24,643 bases of DNA from Baffinella frigidus (lineage: Eukaryota; Cryptophyceae; Cryptomonadales; Baffinellaceae), in assembly GCA_026770585.1 (NCBI GenBank), contig MU647277.1, positions 56,250 through 80,892 of the forward strand, read 5' to 3'. The translations under genes and the position numbers were made by a program. The notes below the pieces were generated by a model, which saw nothing but the letters and a program-made list of their open reading frames with translations, did no database searches and had not been told where the DNA came from. Position 1 is the first letter of the stretch; each line of letters begins with the position of its first letter. Below, piece by piece: positions 9,401 through 24,345 of this stretch.

Positions 9401-12400
9401 TCGAGGTGTCTGACACCCAGGTTGTCGCCTCCGCCCCGGTGAAGCCGGCCCTGGGGGGGGGGGCAGGGGTGAGACGTTTGAGGCTAAGACAGCGAATACC
9501 ACCCTTAGGAAAGCACACACAGGTGATTTGATCGAGGTGTCGGACACCCAGTTCGTCACCTCGGCTCTGGTGAATCCGGCCCTGGGAGGGTGTGGGGTTG
9601 GTTGGGTGTTGATGGTTAATTGTTTCATTATTTATTATTTATTATTTATTGTTTATTGCTTATGTGTATGGTGTGTTGTTTTAATGGGAAGGGGCAGCAC
9701 CGGAGGGAGGGCGAGTCTTGCCAGTAGCCGAACGACACGCCCGGGATCGTGACTTCGTATCGCCCGACCGTCGGGAGGTTCGTCGACACCTGCCGCATAG
9801 CGAAACACTCACTTTCTTGCTCTGTCTCAGTCTATTTCGGCGCATAACGTTAGAGAGCACGGGCTCTGTTCCACTCCAAAGTTGATGGATTAGTACCGCA
9901 GACCCTGGATGACAACTTGTGAATAGTCGGTCAATGCGAGTGAGGCAGAGCTAGGCACAGTGACTTCGTATCGCCCGACCGTCGGGAGGTTCGTCGAGAC
10001 CTGTCAAGGTTTAGGATTGAAAATTTGGGGTTTGGGGTTTGGGGTTTGGGGTTTGGGGTTTGGGGTTCGGGTTTTGGGTTTTGGGGTTGAGTTTTTAGGG
10101 TTTAGGGTTCAGAGTTTAGGGTTTAGGGTTTAGGTTTTAGGGTTTAGGAGTTAATGTTTAAGGTTTAGGGTTTAGGTTTGAGGTTTGAGGGTATAGGGTT
10201 TAGGGTTCAGGCGCACGGACGTTGGTGAAGAAGTGGCGGTCGTAGCTGTAGGAGTCTGAGTCAGAGTGGAACTCGCCCTCCTCGTCCTCCAGAAACACCG
10301 TCACCTAGTAGAGGGTTTCGGGTTTCGGGTTTCGGGTATCGGGTTTCGGTTGTAGCGTTTCGCGGGATTTCGGGGGTTTAGTGTTTCGGGTTTCGGGTTT
10401 AGGGTTTCGGGTTTCGGGTTTCGGGCTTAGGGTTGAGGGGTTTAGGGGGGGGGGGGTCACCCGGGCCGACATGCCTGGTGGGACGAGACACATGATGCGC
10501 CTGATTTGGGGTTTGGAGTTCAGGGCAAGGGTATATTTGTTAGTGTTTAGGGTTGAGGGTTTAGGGTTTGGGGTTAAGGGTTTGGAGTTCAGGGTTTAGG
10601 GTTTAGGGTTTAGGGTTTAAGGTTTAGGGTTCAGAATTTAGGGTGTAGGTTACACCCGGTGTAGGTTACACCCGGTTTCGGGTTTCGGGTTTCGGGTTTC
10701 GGGGGTAGGGGTCCAGGGTTTAGGGTTGAGGTTTTCAGGGGTTTGGGTTTGGGGATTACGAGTCGGAGTGCCACTGGGTGAAGATGCAGCGCGTGTTGCC
10801 CACCTTGATCCACGCGCTCTGCTCGTACCTATTTTCAGGTTTCGGGTTGTCACGTCCCGAAATTAGTACCGGGCTGTAAGAAGGCGGTACAAAAAGTTAC
10901 AAGGCGGTACAAAAAGTTACTACCGTCACGTCCAAATAAGGGGTCCGTTAATATATATCGTATCTTGGTACACATAGTGAAGCAATATTTTTCACGGGTG
11001 AAAAATGTTTCGGGTATCTGGTTTCGGGTTTCGGGGTAAGGGTTTCGGGTTTCGGGTTAAGGGTTTCGGGGTAAGGGTTTCGGGTATCTGGTTTCCGGTT
11101 TCGGGGTGAGGGATCGTACGTCCCGAAGTTCTTCCCGAGGAGGGTGAGGAGGTGGCGCCCACTCTTTGGAGCGTTGGAGGGTACCACTTTGTCCACTTGC
11201 GGGGGATGGAACGAGAACACCTGGTTTAGGTGGGGTCAGGGCTTGGGGTTTGGGGTTTTGGGTGTATATGGTGTTTTTGATAGGACCACGCGGTGATGAA
11301 GGGGTTAGTGTTGAGTGTTTAAGGTTTAGGGTTTAGGGTTTAGGGTTTAGGGTTTAGGGTTTAGGGTTTCGGGTTTAGGGTTTGGAGTTTGAGGTTTCGG
11401 GAGTCGGGTTTCGGGTTTCGGTTTGCGGGTTTCGGGTTTCGGGTTTCGGGTGCATGGTCTAGGGTTTAGACCCCCGCCGCGGTGCCGCGCTGCGACTCGA
11501 CTGACACCACGATTTTCGTCGTCACCTGATGAGGGTTTCACGTTTCGGGTTTCGGGTTTCGGGTTTCGGGTTTCGGGTTTCGCGGTTCGGGTTCGGGTTC
11601 CGGGTTCCGAGTTCCTGGTTCCGAGTTCCTAGTTTCGGATCCCAGGTTCCGGGATTCAGGTTCCGGGTTTCGGGTTTCGCGGTTCGGGTTTCGGGTTCCG
11701 GGTTCCAGGTTCCGGATCTCGAATTCCGGGTTCCGGATCCCGGATCCCGGGTTCCGGGTTCCGGGTTTCGGGTTTCGGGTTTCGGGTAAGGCACCTCTGG
11801 GGCGCGGTTCCACGGCACGCGGCTGATAATCGAGGAGTGAGAGAGCCTGGTTCAGGGTTTCGGGTTTAGAGCTTCGGATTTAGGATTTAGGGATTCGGTT
11901 TAGGGCTTGGGTTTCAGGGTTTAGGAATTGGGTTTAGGGTTCAGGGTTTCGGGTTGAGGATTTAGGGATCCAGTCAAGGGATATAATTTAAGGGGTTAGG
12001 GTTTAGGGTTCAGGGTTTCGGGTTTAGGACCAGAAGGACGCCTCTGCTGCCGTGTACCCGAGGCGCACGGTGGGGGAGCCGCCTGGTTTGGGGTTTCGGG
12101 TTTAGGGTATAGGGTTTAGGGTTTAGGGTTTAGGTTTTGGGGTTTAGGTTTTGGGGTTGAGGGTTGAGGGTTTGGGGTTTGGTGTTAGGGGTTTAGGGAT
12201 TAGGGTTTAGGGCTTAGGGTGGGGGTTGCCTGATGCTCCAAACGAGGCTCCGAGGACGTCCACCAGGATCACGTCCGCCTTGAGGGTTTGGGGTATGGGG
12301 TTTAGGGTTGAGGGTTTAGGATTTCGGGTTTCGGGCTGAGGATTCAGGAGTTCAGGTGTATGGTTGCGGGTTTAGGGTTTAGGTGCCGGGTTTAGGAGTC

Positions 12401-15400
12401 CAGGTTTAGGGTTGAGCGTTTAGGGTTGNNNNNNNNNNNNNNNNNNNNNNNNNNNNNNNNNNNNNNNNNNNNNNNNNNNNNNNNNNNNNNNNNNNNNNNN
12501 NNNNNNNNNNNNNNNNNNNNNNNNNNNNNNNNNNNNNNNNNNNNNNNNNNNNNNNNNNNNNNNNNNNNNNNNNNNNNNNNNNNNNNNNNNNNNNNNNNNN
12601 NNNNNNNNNNNNNNNNNNNNNNNNNNNNNNNNNNNNNNNNNNNNNNNNNNNNNNNNNNNNNNNNNNNNNNNNNNNNNNNNNNNNNNNNNNNNNNNNNNNN
12701 NNNNNNNNNNNNNNNNNNNNNNNNNNNNNNNNNNNNNNNNNNNNNNNNNNNNNNNNNNNNNNNNNNNNNNNNNNNNNNNNNNNNNNNNNNNNNNNNNNNN
12801 NNNNNNNNNNNNNNNNNNNNNNNNNNNNNNNNNNNNNNNNNNNNNNNNNNNNNNNNNNNNNNNNNNNNNNNNNNNNNNNNNNNNNNNNNNNNNNNNNNNN
12901 NNNNNNNNNNNNNNNNNNNNNNNGGGTTTGGGGTTTGGGGTTTGGGGTTTGGTGTTTGGTGTTTGGGGTTTGGGGTTTCGGGTATGGAGTTTCGGGAACA
13001 GGGTTCAGGGTGTAGGGGTTACCAGCGGCGCAAGCGTCACAGAGGGTGCGTCGTACGAAAACACCTGCCCATCACAGAGTCCTTTAGGTTATGAGGCATC
13101 ATAGCAAGCGACCTTTCTTACTACCGAAACGGCCGCCATGCATGCGCCCTACCACTTAGCAGCCACCGGGGGCTTCACGGATACAGTCCATCTAAACGAT
13201 TTGTACTGGAATCTTATCCACTGCCCTGGGTTCCAACCGGAATTTCGCCTTGAATTCAAGGCGAAAAGGAACTCGGCCGCTGCTAAGTTCATCCGGGAAC
13301 ATGTTTAATTTTAAGGGAAATGGCCTATCAAACTGGATTCTGGCCCCAATTAAATTTACTGAGGGCCCTAATTAACCTTGGTCCAACTCCTATGAACAAA
13401 TAGGGATCCATTTTATATTAAATTCAAACATGCCCCCGGATTCAAGTGGCCAGGGGGAGAAGAGGACCTCGGGGCGCGAGAAGTTGCGGGCAAAGTCAGC
13501 GGCGAGCGACACCACGAGCCCGAGCGAATTCCCGCCCCTGGCCCCGCCCGCCCGGCAGCGCAGTGCCGAGTCCGAATCCCACCTGAGCGAGCGAGAGAGC
13601 GTAACTGCACTGAAAGGGCCTACCCACCCATGGACCGAGGCCACACAGCGGGCTACGAAGGGATTTTCGGCCCACATCGGCCACCTTTCCGTTGCCTTAT
13701 CTGTAGGAACCCCCCTATGTCCCTACGCCATCGCTTGCTGTATGGTCCTATATCTTATCGCGTATGGGTTATTCACGAAATCACTCCGTAGTCCGCTGTG
13801 TGGTTAGGCTTAGGATTTAAAGATTCAGCTTCGAGTTTGGGGGCTGCAGGTTGGGAAAGCATACGTGGAGGACACGGTGGCGGTCCCCCCAACCCTAAAC
13901 CCCCAAACCTTAACCCTAAACCCTACCAACCCTGAACCCTTTCGAGGACTGCCACTGTACCAAAGTTACTTCGTGTTAAGGCGCATAGCCTCATTGACCA
14001 CTCATCTCTTGGGTTGAGAGTAATAAAGAAGAAGAGGAAGAAGAAGAAGAAAAAGAAGAAGGGGCAGAAGAAGGGGAGGGGGGCGCATACGACGAGGACA
14101 CGGCAGCGGTCCCCCCAACCCTCACCCCCATCGAGCGATCCGCCGTGCCCCAGTTACCCCCGGTGAGGAAGAGGGGGAGGGGGGCGGAGGACGCGGGGCC
14201 GTTGGTTGTAAGGTTGGCGGTGAGGAGCGGGGGGAGGATGTTCCACGCGTCCTGGTTTAAGGTTTGGGATTTAGGGGTTAGGAGTTTTGGTGTGGGGTCT
14301 GGGGTTTAAGGGTTGGGATTTATGGTTTAGGTTTTAGGGTTTAGGGTTTAGGGTTTAGGGTTTAGGGCTTAGGGTTCAGGGTTTAGGGTTTGGGGTTTAG
14401 GGTTTAGGGTTTGGGGTTCAGGGTTTAGGACCTGCAGCGTCCCTGCTTGGCGCGCAGCCGTCACCTGGGTTAGGGGTTAGAGGTTAGGGTTGAGGGTTCA
14501 GTGTTTGGGGTTCAGTTGGGTTCAAGATTTGGGGGTCAGCTTGGTTCAGTAGGTTCAAAATGGTTCAGTATGGTTGTTTGGGGTTAGGGTACCGGGTACC
14601 GGGTTTGGGGGTTGGACTGTTACCGCGGCCGGGAGGGTCCTCCCGACGGAAGCGGCTACTCTGCACTCCACCAGCGAGTCGCTCCGCCACTGCGTCGCCT
14701 CACACGCGGTCCCCCCTCCCCTCCCGCGTGCCGTGACCCCCCACGCGCCGTACCCAGCGCCCGCGACCGTAGCGACCCACCCCCCCACGGATGCCCCGGC
14801 GGAATGGTTTCCGAGAACGCCTGCTGGCAGAGGGGGCGCAAACGAGAACGCGTCGGAGAGCGTGGAGGTTGTCACGCCTGCGGTCGCGAGGGAAAGTGGG
14901 TTCAGAGCACTTCGTGGTCCATTTACAATATAGACTATAAACGGTATTACACGCTTGGGGTTTGGGGTTTGGGGTTTAGGGGTTAGGGTTTAGGGTGCAG
15001 GGTTCAGCCGTAAATGCGCAGTTCAGGTCACGCATGGGGAGAGTAACGCGTCTGGGGGGGTTGAGGAATCATCAACTACACCCTAGGCGGTGGCGACCGC
15101 CTAGGGTTTAGATCAACTTTAGACCAGAGCGGCCGCTCGTAACGCGGCTTCACGCACCACAGCTAGCTAACAGATTGATAGGGTAACGTCCTGAAAACCG
15201 GGTAGGTAGGCCTACGGTATTGCCTACGGTAGGCCGTAGAGCCCCTAGGACCTAGTGTTTCCTAGGACCCCCCCTAGGCCCCTACGGCCTACCGTAGGCA
15301 ATACCGTAGGCTCAACTACCCGGTTTTCAGGACGTTGGCCTATGTAGATGTGGAAATGACTCTACCTGCGGTGACGACGACGCGGGGGGTAGCAGAGCTC

Positions 15401-16995
15401 TGAACGCGCCACAGCTGGCTAATAGATATGGAAATCACTCTACCGAAAAGATGGCGCGCGTTGCGTTAGCAAGTTCGTTGATTGAGCAAAACGGTTACCT
15501 GCGGTGACGACGACTCAGAGGGTAGCAGAGGCAAATCATCAACTCATGTCCTAGGCTGTGGCGCCCGCCGCTCTCAACGCGCCACAGCTGGCTAACAGAA
15601 GTGGAAATCACTCTACCTGCGGTGACGGCGATGCGAAGGGTCGCTGCAGTGGCGCGGAGCGGGAGGCAGAGCAGCCTGGTTTCGGGTTCGGAGTTGAGCG
15701 TTGGTTTCGGGTTCGGAGGCAAGCAGGTTTGGGGGTTTCGGATTCGGAGTTAAGCAGGTATGGGGTTCAGGGGTGGGTGTTTCGTGTTTCGTGTTTAGGG
15801 TTAAGTGGTGGGGGGTTAGGGTTCATGGTTCAGGGTTCAGAGTGTAGGGGTGCAGGGTTTACGTGGTCGCGGACAGCCAGAGGGTGGACGCCGCGCCCGT
15901 CCCCCCGAAGCGCGCCGCGCCCGTCGCGTGCCCTAGTGTAGGGTTCAGGGTTCAGGGTATCGTATTTCGGGTTTCAGGCTTCAGGATAATCTTAAGGGTT
16001 TGAGGCATTTGGGGCTAGGGTTTCGGGTTTCGGTTTCGGTTTCGGTTTCGGGGTTCATGCTTCAGGATGATTATCGTTAGGGTCTCTAGAGCATTGGGGG
16101 CAGGGTTTCGGGATCATCTTCAGGGTCTAGGGCTTTGGGACTAGGCTTCGGGACTAGGGTTTGAGGGTCAAACCTTGCGCGGGGAACCCTGCCCCGGTGA
16201 GCGCCACCATCTCCGTTTGGTTGTACCTGCTTTCGGGTTAAGGGATGAGGGTTTAGAGTGCAGGGGTTAGGGTTTAGGGTTTGGGGTCTGGGGTCTGGGG
16301 TTTGGGGTTTATATGTTGTGTTTGTTGGAAACATATGGTGAATAGGGTTCAGGGTTTAGGGTGTAGGGTTTATATGGTGTGTTTGTGGGAGGCATGGCGG
16401 CGCATGTAAGATTTCAGGATTCGGGTTTCGGGTTCTGGGTTTAGGGTTTAAGGTTGCAGGTTGTACATGGGAGGCGTGGCGGCGAGGAGCGAAGGCGCGT
16501 CGACTGAGAAGAGGGGTAGCGATGTGCCGCCCTGCGTGTAGGATTTAGGGTTTAGGGTTTAGGGTTTTGGGTTTTGGGTTTTGGGTTTTGGGTTTTGGGG
16601 CTTAGGGTTTAGGGTTTAGGGTTTAGGGTTTAGGGTTTAGGGTTTAGGGTTTAGGGTTTAGGAAGGGTTTAGGGCTTAGGGCTTAGGAAGGGTTTAGGAA
16701 GGGTTTAGGGTTTAGGGCCTACCTGCTCTGCGACCGTGACGGACACGCGCAGGCTCCCCCCGCTCTCGGGAGCCACTTTACACACAAGCGACGCGTCGCC
16801 GCCCCACGCGGTGCTCTCCGCTGCCGTCCCACCCACCTAGGTTACGGTGTAGGGGTTAGAGTTTTTATTTTCGGGTTTCTGTTTTCTATTTTCGGGATTA
16901 TGGTTTTAAGTCCCGCCCACCTGAGGTGGGGTTCAGGTTGTTTTAGTGTCGGGTTTCGGATTCGGGTTGAGGGTTGAGGGTTGAGGGTTGAGGGT

Positions 16996-17028
<33 letters not shown>

Positions 17029-17073
17029 GGTTGAGGGTTGAAGGTTGAGGGTTGAGGGTTGAAGGTTGAGAGT

Positions 17074-17125
<52 letters not shown>

Positions 17126-20100
17126 TGGAGTACCCGTGCGGCGGCGCTGCTGGCCCACGCGCCGAAGCCCTTCCCCTGCACCGTCGTGCTCACAGAGAGA
17201 CCTGTAGGCAAGTTGCGAGAGCCAGCGACGATCGGCGCGTCAAAAGAGAGGACCGCACCCGCGGAGCCGAATGAAGTCGCCGCCTGCCGAAAACGATAAA
17301 AAAAATCAGCCAGATTCTCACTGTTAAGTCATGGTGCAGACAAAGCATCAAAACATGCACCAGCACATTGCAGACCCAACGAATTGAGCATTTCGGTACC
17401 GTGAGCGTGACGCCGCGGCTTCCGCAAAGCGCCGTGGGGGCGAGGCACGCGAGCGCTGAATCCGACACCCACGCGGGTTGACAGGCTATTCTCAAGTTGA
17501 CACCCGGGATCCGCGGTACAATCCCGTCAACTTCGGGGTGGAAACGCGCCCGGTCTCGCCAAATTGGTGCGCCCAAAAGAGCTAGCATTTTGGTACCGTG
17601 AGCGTGACGCCGCGGGTCCCACGGAGCGCCGCGGGTGCGTGGCACGCGAGCGCCGAGTCCGACACCCATGAAGACGCCTCGCACGCGCTCCCCCCGACGC
17701 GGCCAGCAGGCGACGTGTCGTATGCGCCCAGGTGCTCCCCGCGCATGTCCACCGCCTGGTTTCGGGTTTCGGGTTTCGGGTTCAGGGCGTAGGATTCAGG
17801 GTTTAGGGTATAGGGTTTAGGGTTAGGGGTGAGTGTTTGGAGTTTAGGGTTTAGTGTTTGGAGTTTAGGGTTTAGTGTTTAGGGTTTAGGGTTTAGGTTT
17901 CTAGAAATGGATCGTCGTGTAGGGTTAATCAAGGGTTGAGGGTGTACCGCGCCGCCCGTAGTAGCGAGGTTGGCGCCCGAGGGCCCCGGGGGGAGGACGA
18001 GCGGTGTGAGGTACGAGAAGAAGGACGCGTTGGTGGAGATCACCGCCTGCAGGCCCAGCCGCAGAGTTAAAAGTGTACGCTCGCTTCACCAAGAGGCAGG
18101 GTTTGTACCGGGAAAGAAAGGTATAATACATGTACGGACTTTAAAACTACATGTGCAGCGTTTTTTTGGGTACGGAGGAGGACGAGCGGTGTGAGGTACG
18201 AGAAGAAAGACGCGTTGGTGGTGATCGCCGCCTGCGATTCGATGGTGGCGGTTTAGAGTTTGGGGTTAGTGTTTGTGGTTAAACCTGCGATTCGATGGTG
18301 ACGGCCAGCTTGGTTTAGGATTTGGGTTCAGGATTTGGGTTTTAGGTTCAGGATTTGGGTTTTAGGGTATGGGGTTTGGGGTTTAGGGTTTAGGGTTGCC
18401 TGGGATTCGATGGTGACGGCGACGGTGAGCTGGTGCGCGTCGGCTCCAGGAGGGGTGACGCAGAGGAGGGACGAGTCTGATGTCCAGAGGGTCTCGAGGC
18501 AGGAGGACGCCCTGGTCGAAAGTTAGGGTTCAGGCTTCAGTGTTTCGGGTTTCGGGGTGAGGGTTCAGGGTTTAGGGTTTAGGGTTTGGGGTTCAGGGTT
18601 AAGGGTTTGGGGTTTACGGTTCAGGGTTTAGGGTGTGGGGTTGAGGGTGTGGGGTTTAGGATCCCACGGGTTGGGTGCTCCATACGGTAGATGTGTATGT
18701 TTAGGGCGTAAGGGCTACCAATTCCTATAAACCTTTTAGGATTTAGGGTGTAGGGGGTACCCGAGCGAGGCAGCCCGTGCCTCGGGCGCGCCGAGGATGC
18801 GGGGGTTTGAGCGCACCGGGCCGAACCCGGATCCTGCGGACAACCCGCAATATTATAATACATCCCTAATATTATTATACACCCCTAATATTATTATACA
18901 CCCCTAACCGTTGACTACTTTCACAGCGCCGAGGATGCGGGGGTTTGAGCGCACCGGGCCGAAGCCCGATCCTGGTTGAGGGTTTGAGTTTAGAGTACAG
19001 CCCTAACCCGGGGGAAACCCCCCACCGTCCCAGGGTTAACTACTCTCACAGGTGTTGTATCCCGGGGGTGGGAGCTAAACCGGGCATGGTTTGCACCGGG
19101 GAGAGGGATTAGAGTTTAGTTTTTAGTTTTTAGTTTTTAGGGTTTAGGGGTTAGATACCAGGGAGAGGAGAAATCAATGAAACGTGGGTGGGAGGGAGGG
19201 AGTTGCCTGTGAGGGTGAGGCGTGTCCCGCCGCGCGGCGGCCCGTCGTCGCGCGAGAGGGCAGGGGGCGCGGGGGGGAGGTAGCGGAGGTAGAGCGGCGA
19301 TGAGGAGAGGTTGTACTCCATGAGTCGCGCCTGGTTTGGGGTTTGGGGTTCCACTTAGCAGTCACCGGGGGCTTCACGGATACAGTCCATCTAAACTATT
19401 TGTACTAGAATCGTATCCATTTGCATTGGATTCTAACCGCATTTCTCCCGGATATCCGGGGGGAAAGGAACTCGGCCGCTGCTAAGTGGAGGGGCTCGCC
19501 GCGCCTGTCGTGTTAAGGGGAAACGGAAAGACATAAGCAACCACCCGCCCCCCCGGTGGGGTGGTGGGGGGGGGTAGTGGGGGTAGAGCGGAGATGGGGA
19601 GAGGTTGTACTCAACTGGGCGGGCCTGGTGGGGTATGGGGTTGAGGGGTTGGGGTTGAGGGTTTAGGGTTTAGGGTGAGGGAGCAGGGTGGTGCAGCCTT
19701 GACTTTCTCGCAGCAAGACGAGACGAGACCTAGCTCTGTCCGAGTAAAGTCGGGCGCGTACATGTTTCGCCCCCCTCCCCCATTTCACAGGTAGATTTCA
19801 TGGGGGGGGTTCAAAATTTACCTGTGAAATTTCGGGGGGGGGCGAAATATGTACGCGCCCAACTTTACTCGGACGGATCTAGGAGACGACAGGAGGACAC
19901 TCCTCCCCCGCGGCATTGGGCGAAAGCGAGCGGGGAAACCCTACACACGCTAACCCCCGCCCCTAACAAACACACCTTCCCAGCGTTCTGGCACCAAGAC
20001 GAGAGGAGAAGAGGGGAGACCGCCCGGGGAGGCAGCGGGAGCTCTGGTCAGCAGCAGGGGGGGTGGGGCGTGGGATCGAGGGGAAACGCTGATCTCCAAC

Positions 20101-24166: not shown

Positions 24167-24345
24167 GATCTAATCCCGCCAGGTATTTGATTTAAATGGT
24201 CGGGAGTTCCCCGAATCAACGAAATTTACTACACAATTGGACAAATCAGTCGTGTCCAGCCCTGGACGTGACCAATTGTGTGGTAAATTTCATGTATTCG
24301 GGGAACTCCCAACCATTTAAAACAAATACCTGGCGGGATGAGATC
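24167..24345. mobile_element. Large foldback element with arms of about 70 bases
   Basis: Ends GATCTAATCCCGCCAGG and CCTGGCGGGATGAGATC. The arms continue through GGGAGTTCCCCGAAT and AAATTTACTACACAATTGG to a loop of about 35 bases. It is the most complete hairpin in the window and lies outside the recognised exons. Confidence 0.75.

Follow-up and report, generated by a model that had tools for sequence, protein, structure and literature searches.

Some previously characterised introner families make target duplications of 3-9 bp, and introners are described as using GC as well as GT donors, with some carrying both splice sites and adding codons (PMC9860276). In Daphnia, neo-introns are attributed to staggered double-strand breaks that leave repeats of 4-12 bp between the intron and one adjacent exon, and nested secondary staggered insertions lengthen these introns (PMC4202315). 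A model of intron gain by AGGT duplication, together with a potato variant, is described in PMC3443670 and PMC4974935. Here we describe an intron of an IPT/TIG repeat gene of the cryptophyte Baffinella frigidus that contains a continuous copy of the two exon edges it separates, lying directly beside a dispersed element that looks like an introner.

Gene model and organization of intron 12

The window, by which we mean the whole stretch of 24,643 nucleotides analyzed (contig MU647277.1, positions 56,250 to 80,892), is located at a contig end in an assembly of 382,457,362 bases and 1364 contigs; the adjoining 20 kb of the contig (36251-56249) reads N. Fifteen hand-modelled exons join without a stop into one frame, and because that frame is kept over its full 559 aa, the edges of exons 12 and 13 are credible. 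All 14 model introns end in AG; 12 start with GT and two, those after exons 10 and 12, with GC. The GC donor that the initial annotation had assigned to exon 12 is thus present (CAG/GCAACC, the slash marking the exon edge), and CCCTAAA-type heptamers abound in many introns of the gene. Cryptophytes supply the named proteins that most resemble the TIG family (Guillardia theta, Hanusia phi, B. frigidus and an MMETSP record whose organism name breaks off at 'Crypt'; best 20 of 7991 scored). A protein search (972 candidates) gave no relative of this stretch, and a genome search of the assembly gave no close paralogue.

Table 1. Features of the gene and of the intron 12 region, in window coordinates and listed in the direction of the gene.
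Feature	Coordinates	Strand	Description and basis
IPT/TIG repeat gene, 15-exon stretch	13430..19330	-	559 aa, six modules; Pfam PF01833, profile hits
Exon 12	18400..18511	-	ends ...ACCATCGAATCCCAG, GC donor; last ~20 nt are copy X1; open frame, TIG profile hit
Insert 1, start of intron 12	18306..18399	-	CCCTAAA-type, no exon-13-like start; sequence
X2, copy of exon 12 end	18285..18305	-	21/22 identical including the next base (18284), then GT
Insert 2	18252..18284	-	short, CCCTAAA-like; sequence
X3, copy of exon 12 end	18232..18251	-	left part of fused copy; alignment
Y', copy of first 48 nt of exon 13	18184..18231	-	right part of fused copy, abuts E1; alignment
E1, introner-like	18047..18183	-	137 nt, GTCCTCC...GGGCCTGCAG; provides the intron 12 acceptor; dispersed copies
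Exon 13	17948..18046	-	starts with the other 48-nt copy, Y (18046-17999); open frame, alignment

The initial annotation had pointed to an intron-free copy of the exon 12/13 junction within intron 12, and this is borne out. Positions 18251-18174 of the reverse strand carry 20 nt of the end of exon 12 followed, with no gap between, by 58 nt of the start of exon 13, with 72 of 78 positions identical to the spliced exons (70 of 76 in a shorter hand alignment); the copy translates as TATIESQAAITTNASFFSYLTPL, where the gene reads AVTIESQ^AVISTNASFFSYLTPL. The likeness is beyond chance: no score exceeds 11 in 200 dinucleotide shuffles, and the exon-12 part reaches 19 in the intron. A 25-nt fused junction, searched for at no more than three mismatches, occurs at a single place in the readable assembly, which is intron 12; the search recovered no further copy of the spliced junction. 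We considered the fused copy as an alternative exon and rejected this: by reading, there is no AG between X2 and X3; the exon-13 part would be 58 nt, and out of frame, if GTACCC were the donor; and the genome match across the fused copy contains one TAA.

The end of exon 12 is present three times, with CCCTAAA-like sequence between the copies, and X2 is followed by TTTAACC, which gives CAG/GTTTAACC. Y' and Y are identical at 45 of 48 positions (score 40.5), and each lies 0 nt from its end of E1. Direct repeats of exon sequence, by which staggered-break introns are recognized, therefore flank the inserts, those abutting E1 being 48 nt long and the X copies 20-22 nt. An X copy and a Y copy adjoin in one place only, the fused copy. 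The acceptor CTGCAG of intron 12 is the 3' end of E1, and ten bases of exon 13, GTCCTCCCCC, are alike at 8 of 10 positions, by reading, to the E1 start GTCCGCCCCG.

E1 and its dispersed copies

The 130 nt before exon 13, used as a query, identify 15 places in the assembly, itself included, and the copy at locus L052 identifies 37 matches. Nineteen copies could be aligned over most or all of their length; the first stretch is absent in one, and the others span from about GTCCGCC to the 3' end, which is CAG in 14 of the 19. Among 24 copies with a 5' end, 21 start with GT or GC (19 and two, respectively) and 15 are preceded by CAG; in three cases (L049, one in L054 and one in L069) this CAG belongs to an adjacent E1, as its end. 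A CAG end is found in 21 of 32 distinct copies, these counts including a few doubtful ones (L066, L067 and L075 are probably not E1) and treating L055 and L061 as one locus. A CAG both before the element and at its end is indistinguishable from a target duplication of CAG. Inspection by eye established no terminal inverted repeat for E1.

L052 has an open frame that E1 interrupts in phase 0 (...GLYFKNKPLQ^LPDPTLQYDEM...), and at L050 an E1 intron with a continuing frame is plausible. Because its copies are dispersed, its ends are GT or GC and CAG, and the frame at L052 is split in this way, E1 looks like an introner, judged by sequence. Tandem copies, one beginning where the CTGCAG of the other ends, occur at L049, L054, L056 and L069.

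The best E1 match within the window is the intron 12 copy itself (18183-18047, score 75), and the next scores 26.2 (7745-7629); a single shuffled window gave 19.8. Intron 12 yielded no second E1. Compared with the consensus of the other copies, the window copy has 31 differences in 135 positions (23%), and the fused copy departs from the exons at 6 of 76 (8%).

Flanking repeats at other copies of E1

A strict test, in which a repeat must contact both E1 ends within 3 nt, was applied to 24 copies, and a long repeat is present in the window copy alone, the maximum in 530 mismatched control pairs being 9.7; a 48-nt target duplication is therefore not the rule of the family. Locus L058 has an ungapped repeat of 23 of 30 nt that abuts both ends, and we read its failure in the strict test as a 2-nt shift of the boundary. 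A test of 120 nt of unanchored flank is weakly controlled, its 790 mismatched pairs having 95% at 13.5 and reaching 43, and we think the high maximum comes from sequence common to neighbouring copies; it also recovers abutting repeats at L065 and L071, which are poor E1 matches. A test of 40 nt of flank, picked after the 120-nt result was seen and limited to copies with both ends and a score of at least 50, places five of 19 copies above the maximum of 9.0 in 326 mismatched pairs: the window (27.5), L058 (16.5), L055 (12.5), L064 (10.5) and L057 (9.5). The repeats at L055, L064 and L057 do not reach both E1 ends. Long, exactly abutting repeats are thus a property of the window copy and, less perfectly, of L058. 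At L057 the arrangement is E1, an exon-like piece, E1, and a similar piece.

Other introns and duplications in the gene

Five of the 14 model introns, those after exons 10, 12, 14, 20 and 23, contain a copy of a flanking exon edge, and among these a fused copy at close identity occurs only after exon 12; the formal crossing after exon 10 rests on 10 nt of intron-like CCCTCAACCAG. Of the other 13 spliced junctions, each compared with the whole window, none has a fused copy of similar closeness. Weaker crossings of exons 15/16, 16/17 and 23/24 (best E values 3e-4, 1e-4 and 2e-6) fall in other TIG modules that are uninterrupted at those points, and those of exons 10/11, 11/12, 17/18, 18/19 and 19/20, with 8-11 nt on the short side, were set aside as exon edges, or the exon 11 copy, joined to their own intron bases.

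When 27 duplicate pairs were aligned together with their flanks, several were seen to start sharply at CAG (24020/23847, 18974/18836, 18235/18050, 10003/9792, 9590/9459, 9057/8859 and 6989/6757). Others, such as 17668/17471 and 1281/1138, run on into the intron and therefore postdate it.

A second, large insert family is represented by positions 9793-9962, for which 40 of 2004 candidates were scored; the 39 non-self matches begin at query positions 2-15 and end at 141-152 of 170, which leaves a gap of about 20 nt between the end of the element and the second duplicate. We therefore rejected the idea that all inserts make long target duplications. The abundant repeat of this family, about 140 bp long (9954-9814), has ends that by eye resemble inverted repeats and is matched in inverted orientation by 17577-17470 (73% over 108 bp).

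Several further features of the window were noted. The intron after exon 17 (16466-16227) starts with GTACAACC, as does the next exon; this 8-bp direct repeat, of a kind seen after insertion with target duplication, is the longest among the 14 introns (maximum 5 in 182 mismatched control pairs). In the intron after exon 20, 7 nt (ACCGCAG) are common to the exon end and the intron end (control maximum 6). Between 1281 and 812, one exon end with a GT donor is present in four copies (GATGG/GTAACATCCC or a near form). Two copies of another element (13152-13288 and 19351-19487, 85%) have ends like CCACTTAGCAG and CTGCTAAGTGG, and similar sequence lies beside E1 in L051; fold-back elements at 24167-24345, 19729-19883 and 15178-15343 have arms of 77, 70 and 67 nt. 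Many introns of the window consist of telomere-like CCCTAAA/CCCGAAA heptamers, several ending in AACCAG/G, and these may represent another type of insert that forms introns.

Thirteen of the 14 introns can be mapped to the TIG profile, where they occupy 12 distinct column-and-phase positions across the six modules. The sole shared position, column 76 in phase 0, belongs to the introns after exons 12 and 16. Identity is 31% between modules M1 and M3, as it is between M1 and M4. Paralogues with many modules in one frame are found elsewhere in the assembly, and because they were picked as long open frames, they prove that uninterrupted modules exist, not how frequent they are; one on C4 is an uninterrupted frame of 1734 aa with about 20 TIG modules (L046, G000:C4:1742000-1751500), while the modules in the window are finely split. 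Together, the 12 distinct positions among 13 introns and the multi-module open frames suggest that the introns came later than the duplication of the modules.

Origin of the fused copy

We consider it somewhat probable, from the arrangement of the sequences, that X3-Y' preserves the exon as it was before interruption, caught between insertions of E1 and of CCCTAAA-type DNA. E1, bringing its own GT start and its own CTGCAG end, would have entered next to or inside this exon. The 48-nt exon copies around it could be a target duplication of unusual length, or could stem from an ordinary insertion at CAG/G that recombined with an intron-free allele; the likeness between the start of E1 and exon 13 would help the route by exchange between intron-bearing and intron-free alleles. 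CCCTAAA-type DNA would have entered on the other side of X3-Y', duplicating about 20 nt of the end of exon 12. The spliceosome is predicted to join the outermost exon-12 copy, with its GC donor, to the exon-13 copy that follows the CAG of E1, and splicing would thereby remove the exon relic along with E1 and the two inserts, so that the protein would be unchanged.

Either the duplication of X or that of Y, taken alone, would imply that X and Y were contiguous, and since these two separate duplications meet only in the fused copy, we read it as the original exon. The dispersal of E1 with ends resembling splice sites, the frame split at L052, the five of 19 copies above control in the 40-nt test and the apparent arrival of introns after module duplication also favor this reading. 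This reading explains both duplications with no need for a deletion, whereas the alternatives require an exact secondary fusion or an RNA patch. The order of the events, the ancestry of the fused state and the use of the proposed splice sites are what we infer from this arrangement. The initial annotation had taken the locus as a fossil of intron birth, and this is supported to the extent that an uninterrupted exon is the simplest source of the fused copy; the mechanism offered for it, a tandem duplication at AG-G, is not supported. Its further suggestion that the GC donor fits an uninterrupted CAG-GC is acceptable in that this donor may derive from the GC of the ancestral junction, a weak point of 2 nt.

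Several observations weigh against an insertion into the uninterrupted exon. Long repeats in contact with both element ends are confined to the window copy in the strict test, and the more permissive 40-nt test was picked with the 120-nt result in view. E1 may be older than the duplication, as its divergence from the consensus exceeds that of the fused copy from the exons; if all copies of E1 had one source, E1 would predate the duplication, and routes by excision or exchange would gain weight, whereas if E1 comprises subfamilies, the divergence figures date nothing. The second insert family misses the edge of its duplication, and copies of exon edges that postdate their introns are present in the same gene. 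The profile position common to the introns after exons 12 and 16 would also allow an older intron; yet M1 and M3 have only the low identity given above.

In the most probable of the alternatives, the intron was already present when E1 and the start of exon 13 underwent tandem duplication as one block; exact loss of the upstream E1, by excision or by joining at the CAG-G common to donor and acceptor, would then have left the fused copy as a secondary product. The arrangement at L057, the tandem copies of E1 at four other loci and the apparent age of the E1 copy all favor it, and an exact join would be easy because X2 and the acceptor share GCAGG (by reading). It nevertheless requires an extra deletion with exact positions, and intron 12 holds no second E1 that the search could recover, the next match in the window being the weak one elsewhere noted above; we regard it as unlikely. 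Less likely still is the copying of a piece of spliced mRNA or cDNA into the intron: the junction is as exact as in spliced RNA, but such a patch would cover 78 nt over just one of 14 junctions, neither the other 13 junctions in the window nor, at up to three mismatches, the exon 12/13 junction elsewhere in the readable assembly has left a comparable copy, and both the exact abutment to E1 and the presence of X2 would go unexplained. Plain tandem duplication of an AG-G exon, the copies supplying donor and acceptor, is very improbable even though duplicated exon sequence with CAG-GC is present. It would place exon-13-like sequence right behind the donor and exon-12-like sequence right ahead of the acceptor, but the first 94 nt of intron 12 resemble exon 13 no more than shuffles do (score 6, p 0.85, 500 shuffles). 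Likeness to exon 12 is equally absent from E1 (score 5, p 0.998) and from its last 60 nt (score 4, p 1.0), again with 500 shuffles each, and the acceptor is supplied by the dispersed element.

A wider generalization, which we put forward as doubtful, is that E1 and similar introns insert by a 3' CAG anchor. The CAG end would join just after a target CAG and the other end further downstream, at a spacing that varies from 0 to about 50 nt in the manner of target-primed insertion and gives rise to the exon duplication. Were this true, introns of this genome would keep readable relics of uninterrupted exons and hence a record of their own birth.

Implications and relation to known systems

Showing that an intron was gained mostly depends on a relative that lacks it. 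In intron 12, the pre-insertion exon apparently survives within the intron, alongside the inserted element and the flanking duplications, and because all three appear to be preserved together, the order of events could be read from one genome. The same reading can be tested on other introns made by E1, and if it is general, the mechanism of introner insertion would be open to study without comparative data.

We did not find the arrangement of E1 and the relic described in literature on introners and target duplications, on intron gain by tandem duplication, or on telomeric repeats in relation to intron gain, which was represented mostly by titles and the openings of abstracts and is thus weak evidence of absence. 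The tandem-duplication model, as presented in PMC3443670, shares with intron 12 the duplication of exon sequence beside a new intron, but there it is the duplicated sequence that provides the splice sites, whereas here the acceptor comes from the inserted E1. The Daphnia neo-introns, as outlined in PMC4202315, are similar in their exon-derived direct repeats and nested insertions; their repeats are 4-12 bp, in contrast to about 20 and 48 nt here, and the DNA inserted here is a repeated element. E1 is like the introners characterized in PMC9860276 in being dispersed in many copies, with ends resembling splice sites and starts of GC or GT, and intron 12 differs from the 3-9 bp duplications given there in its exactly abutting repeat of 48 nt and in the exon relic that it appears to contain.
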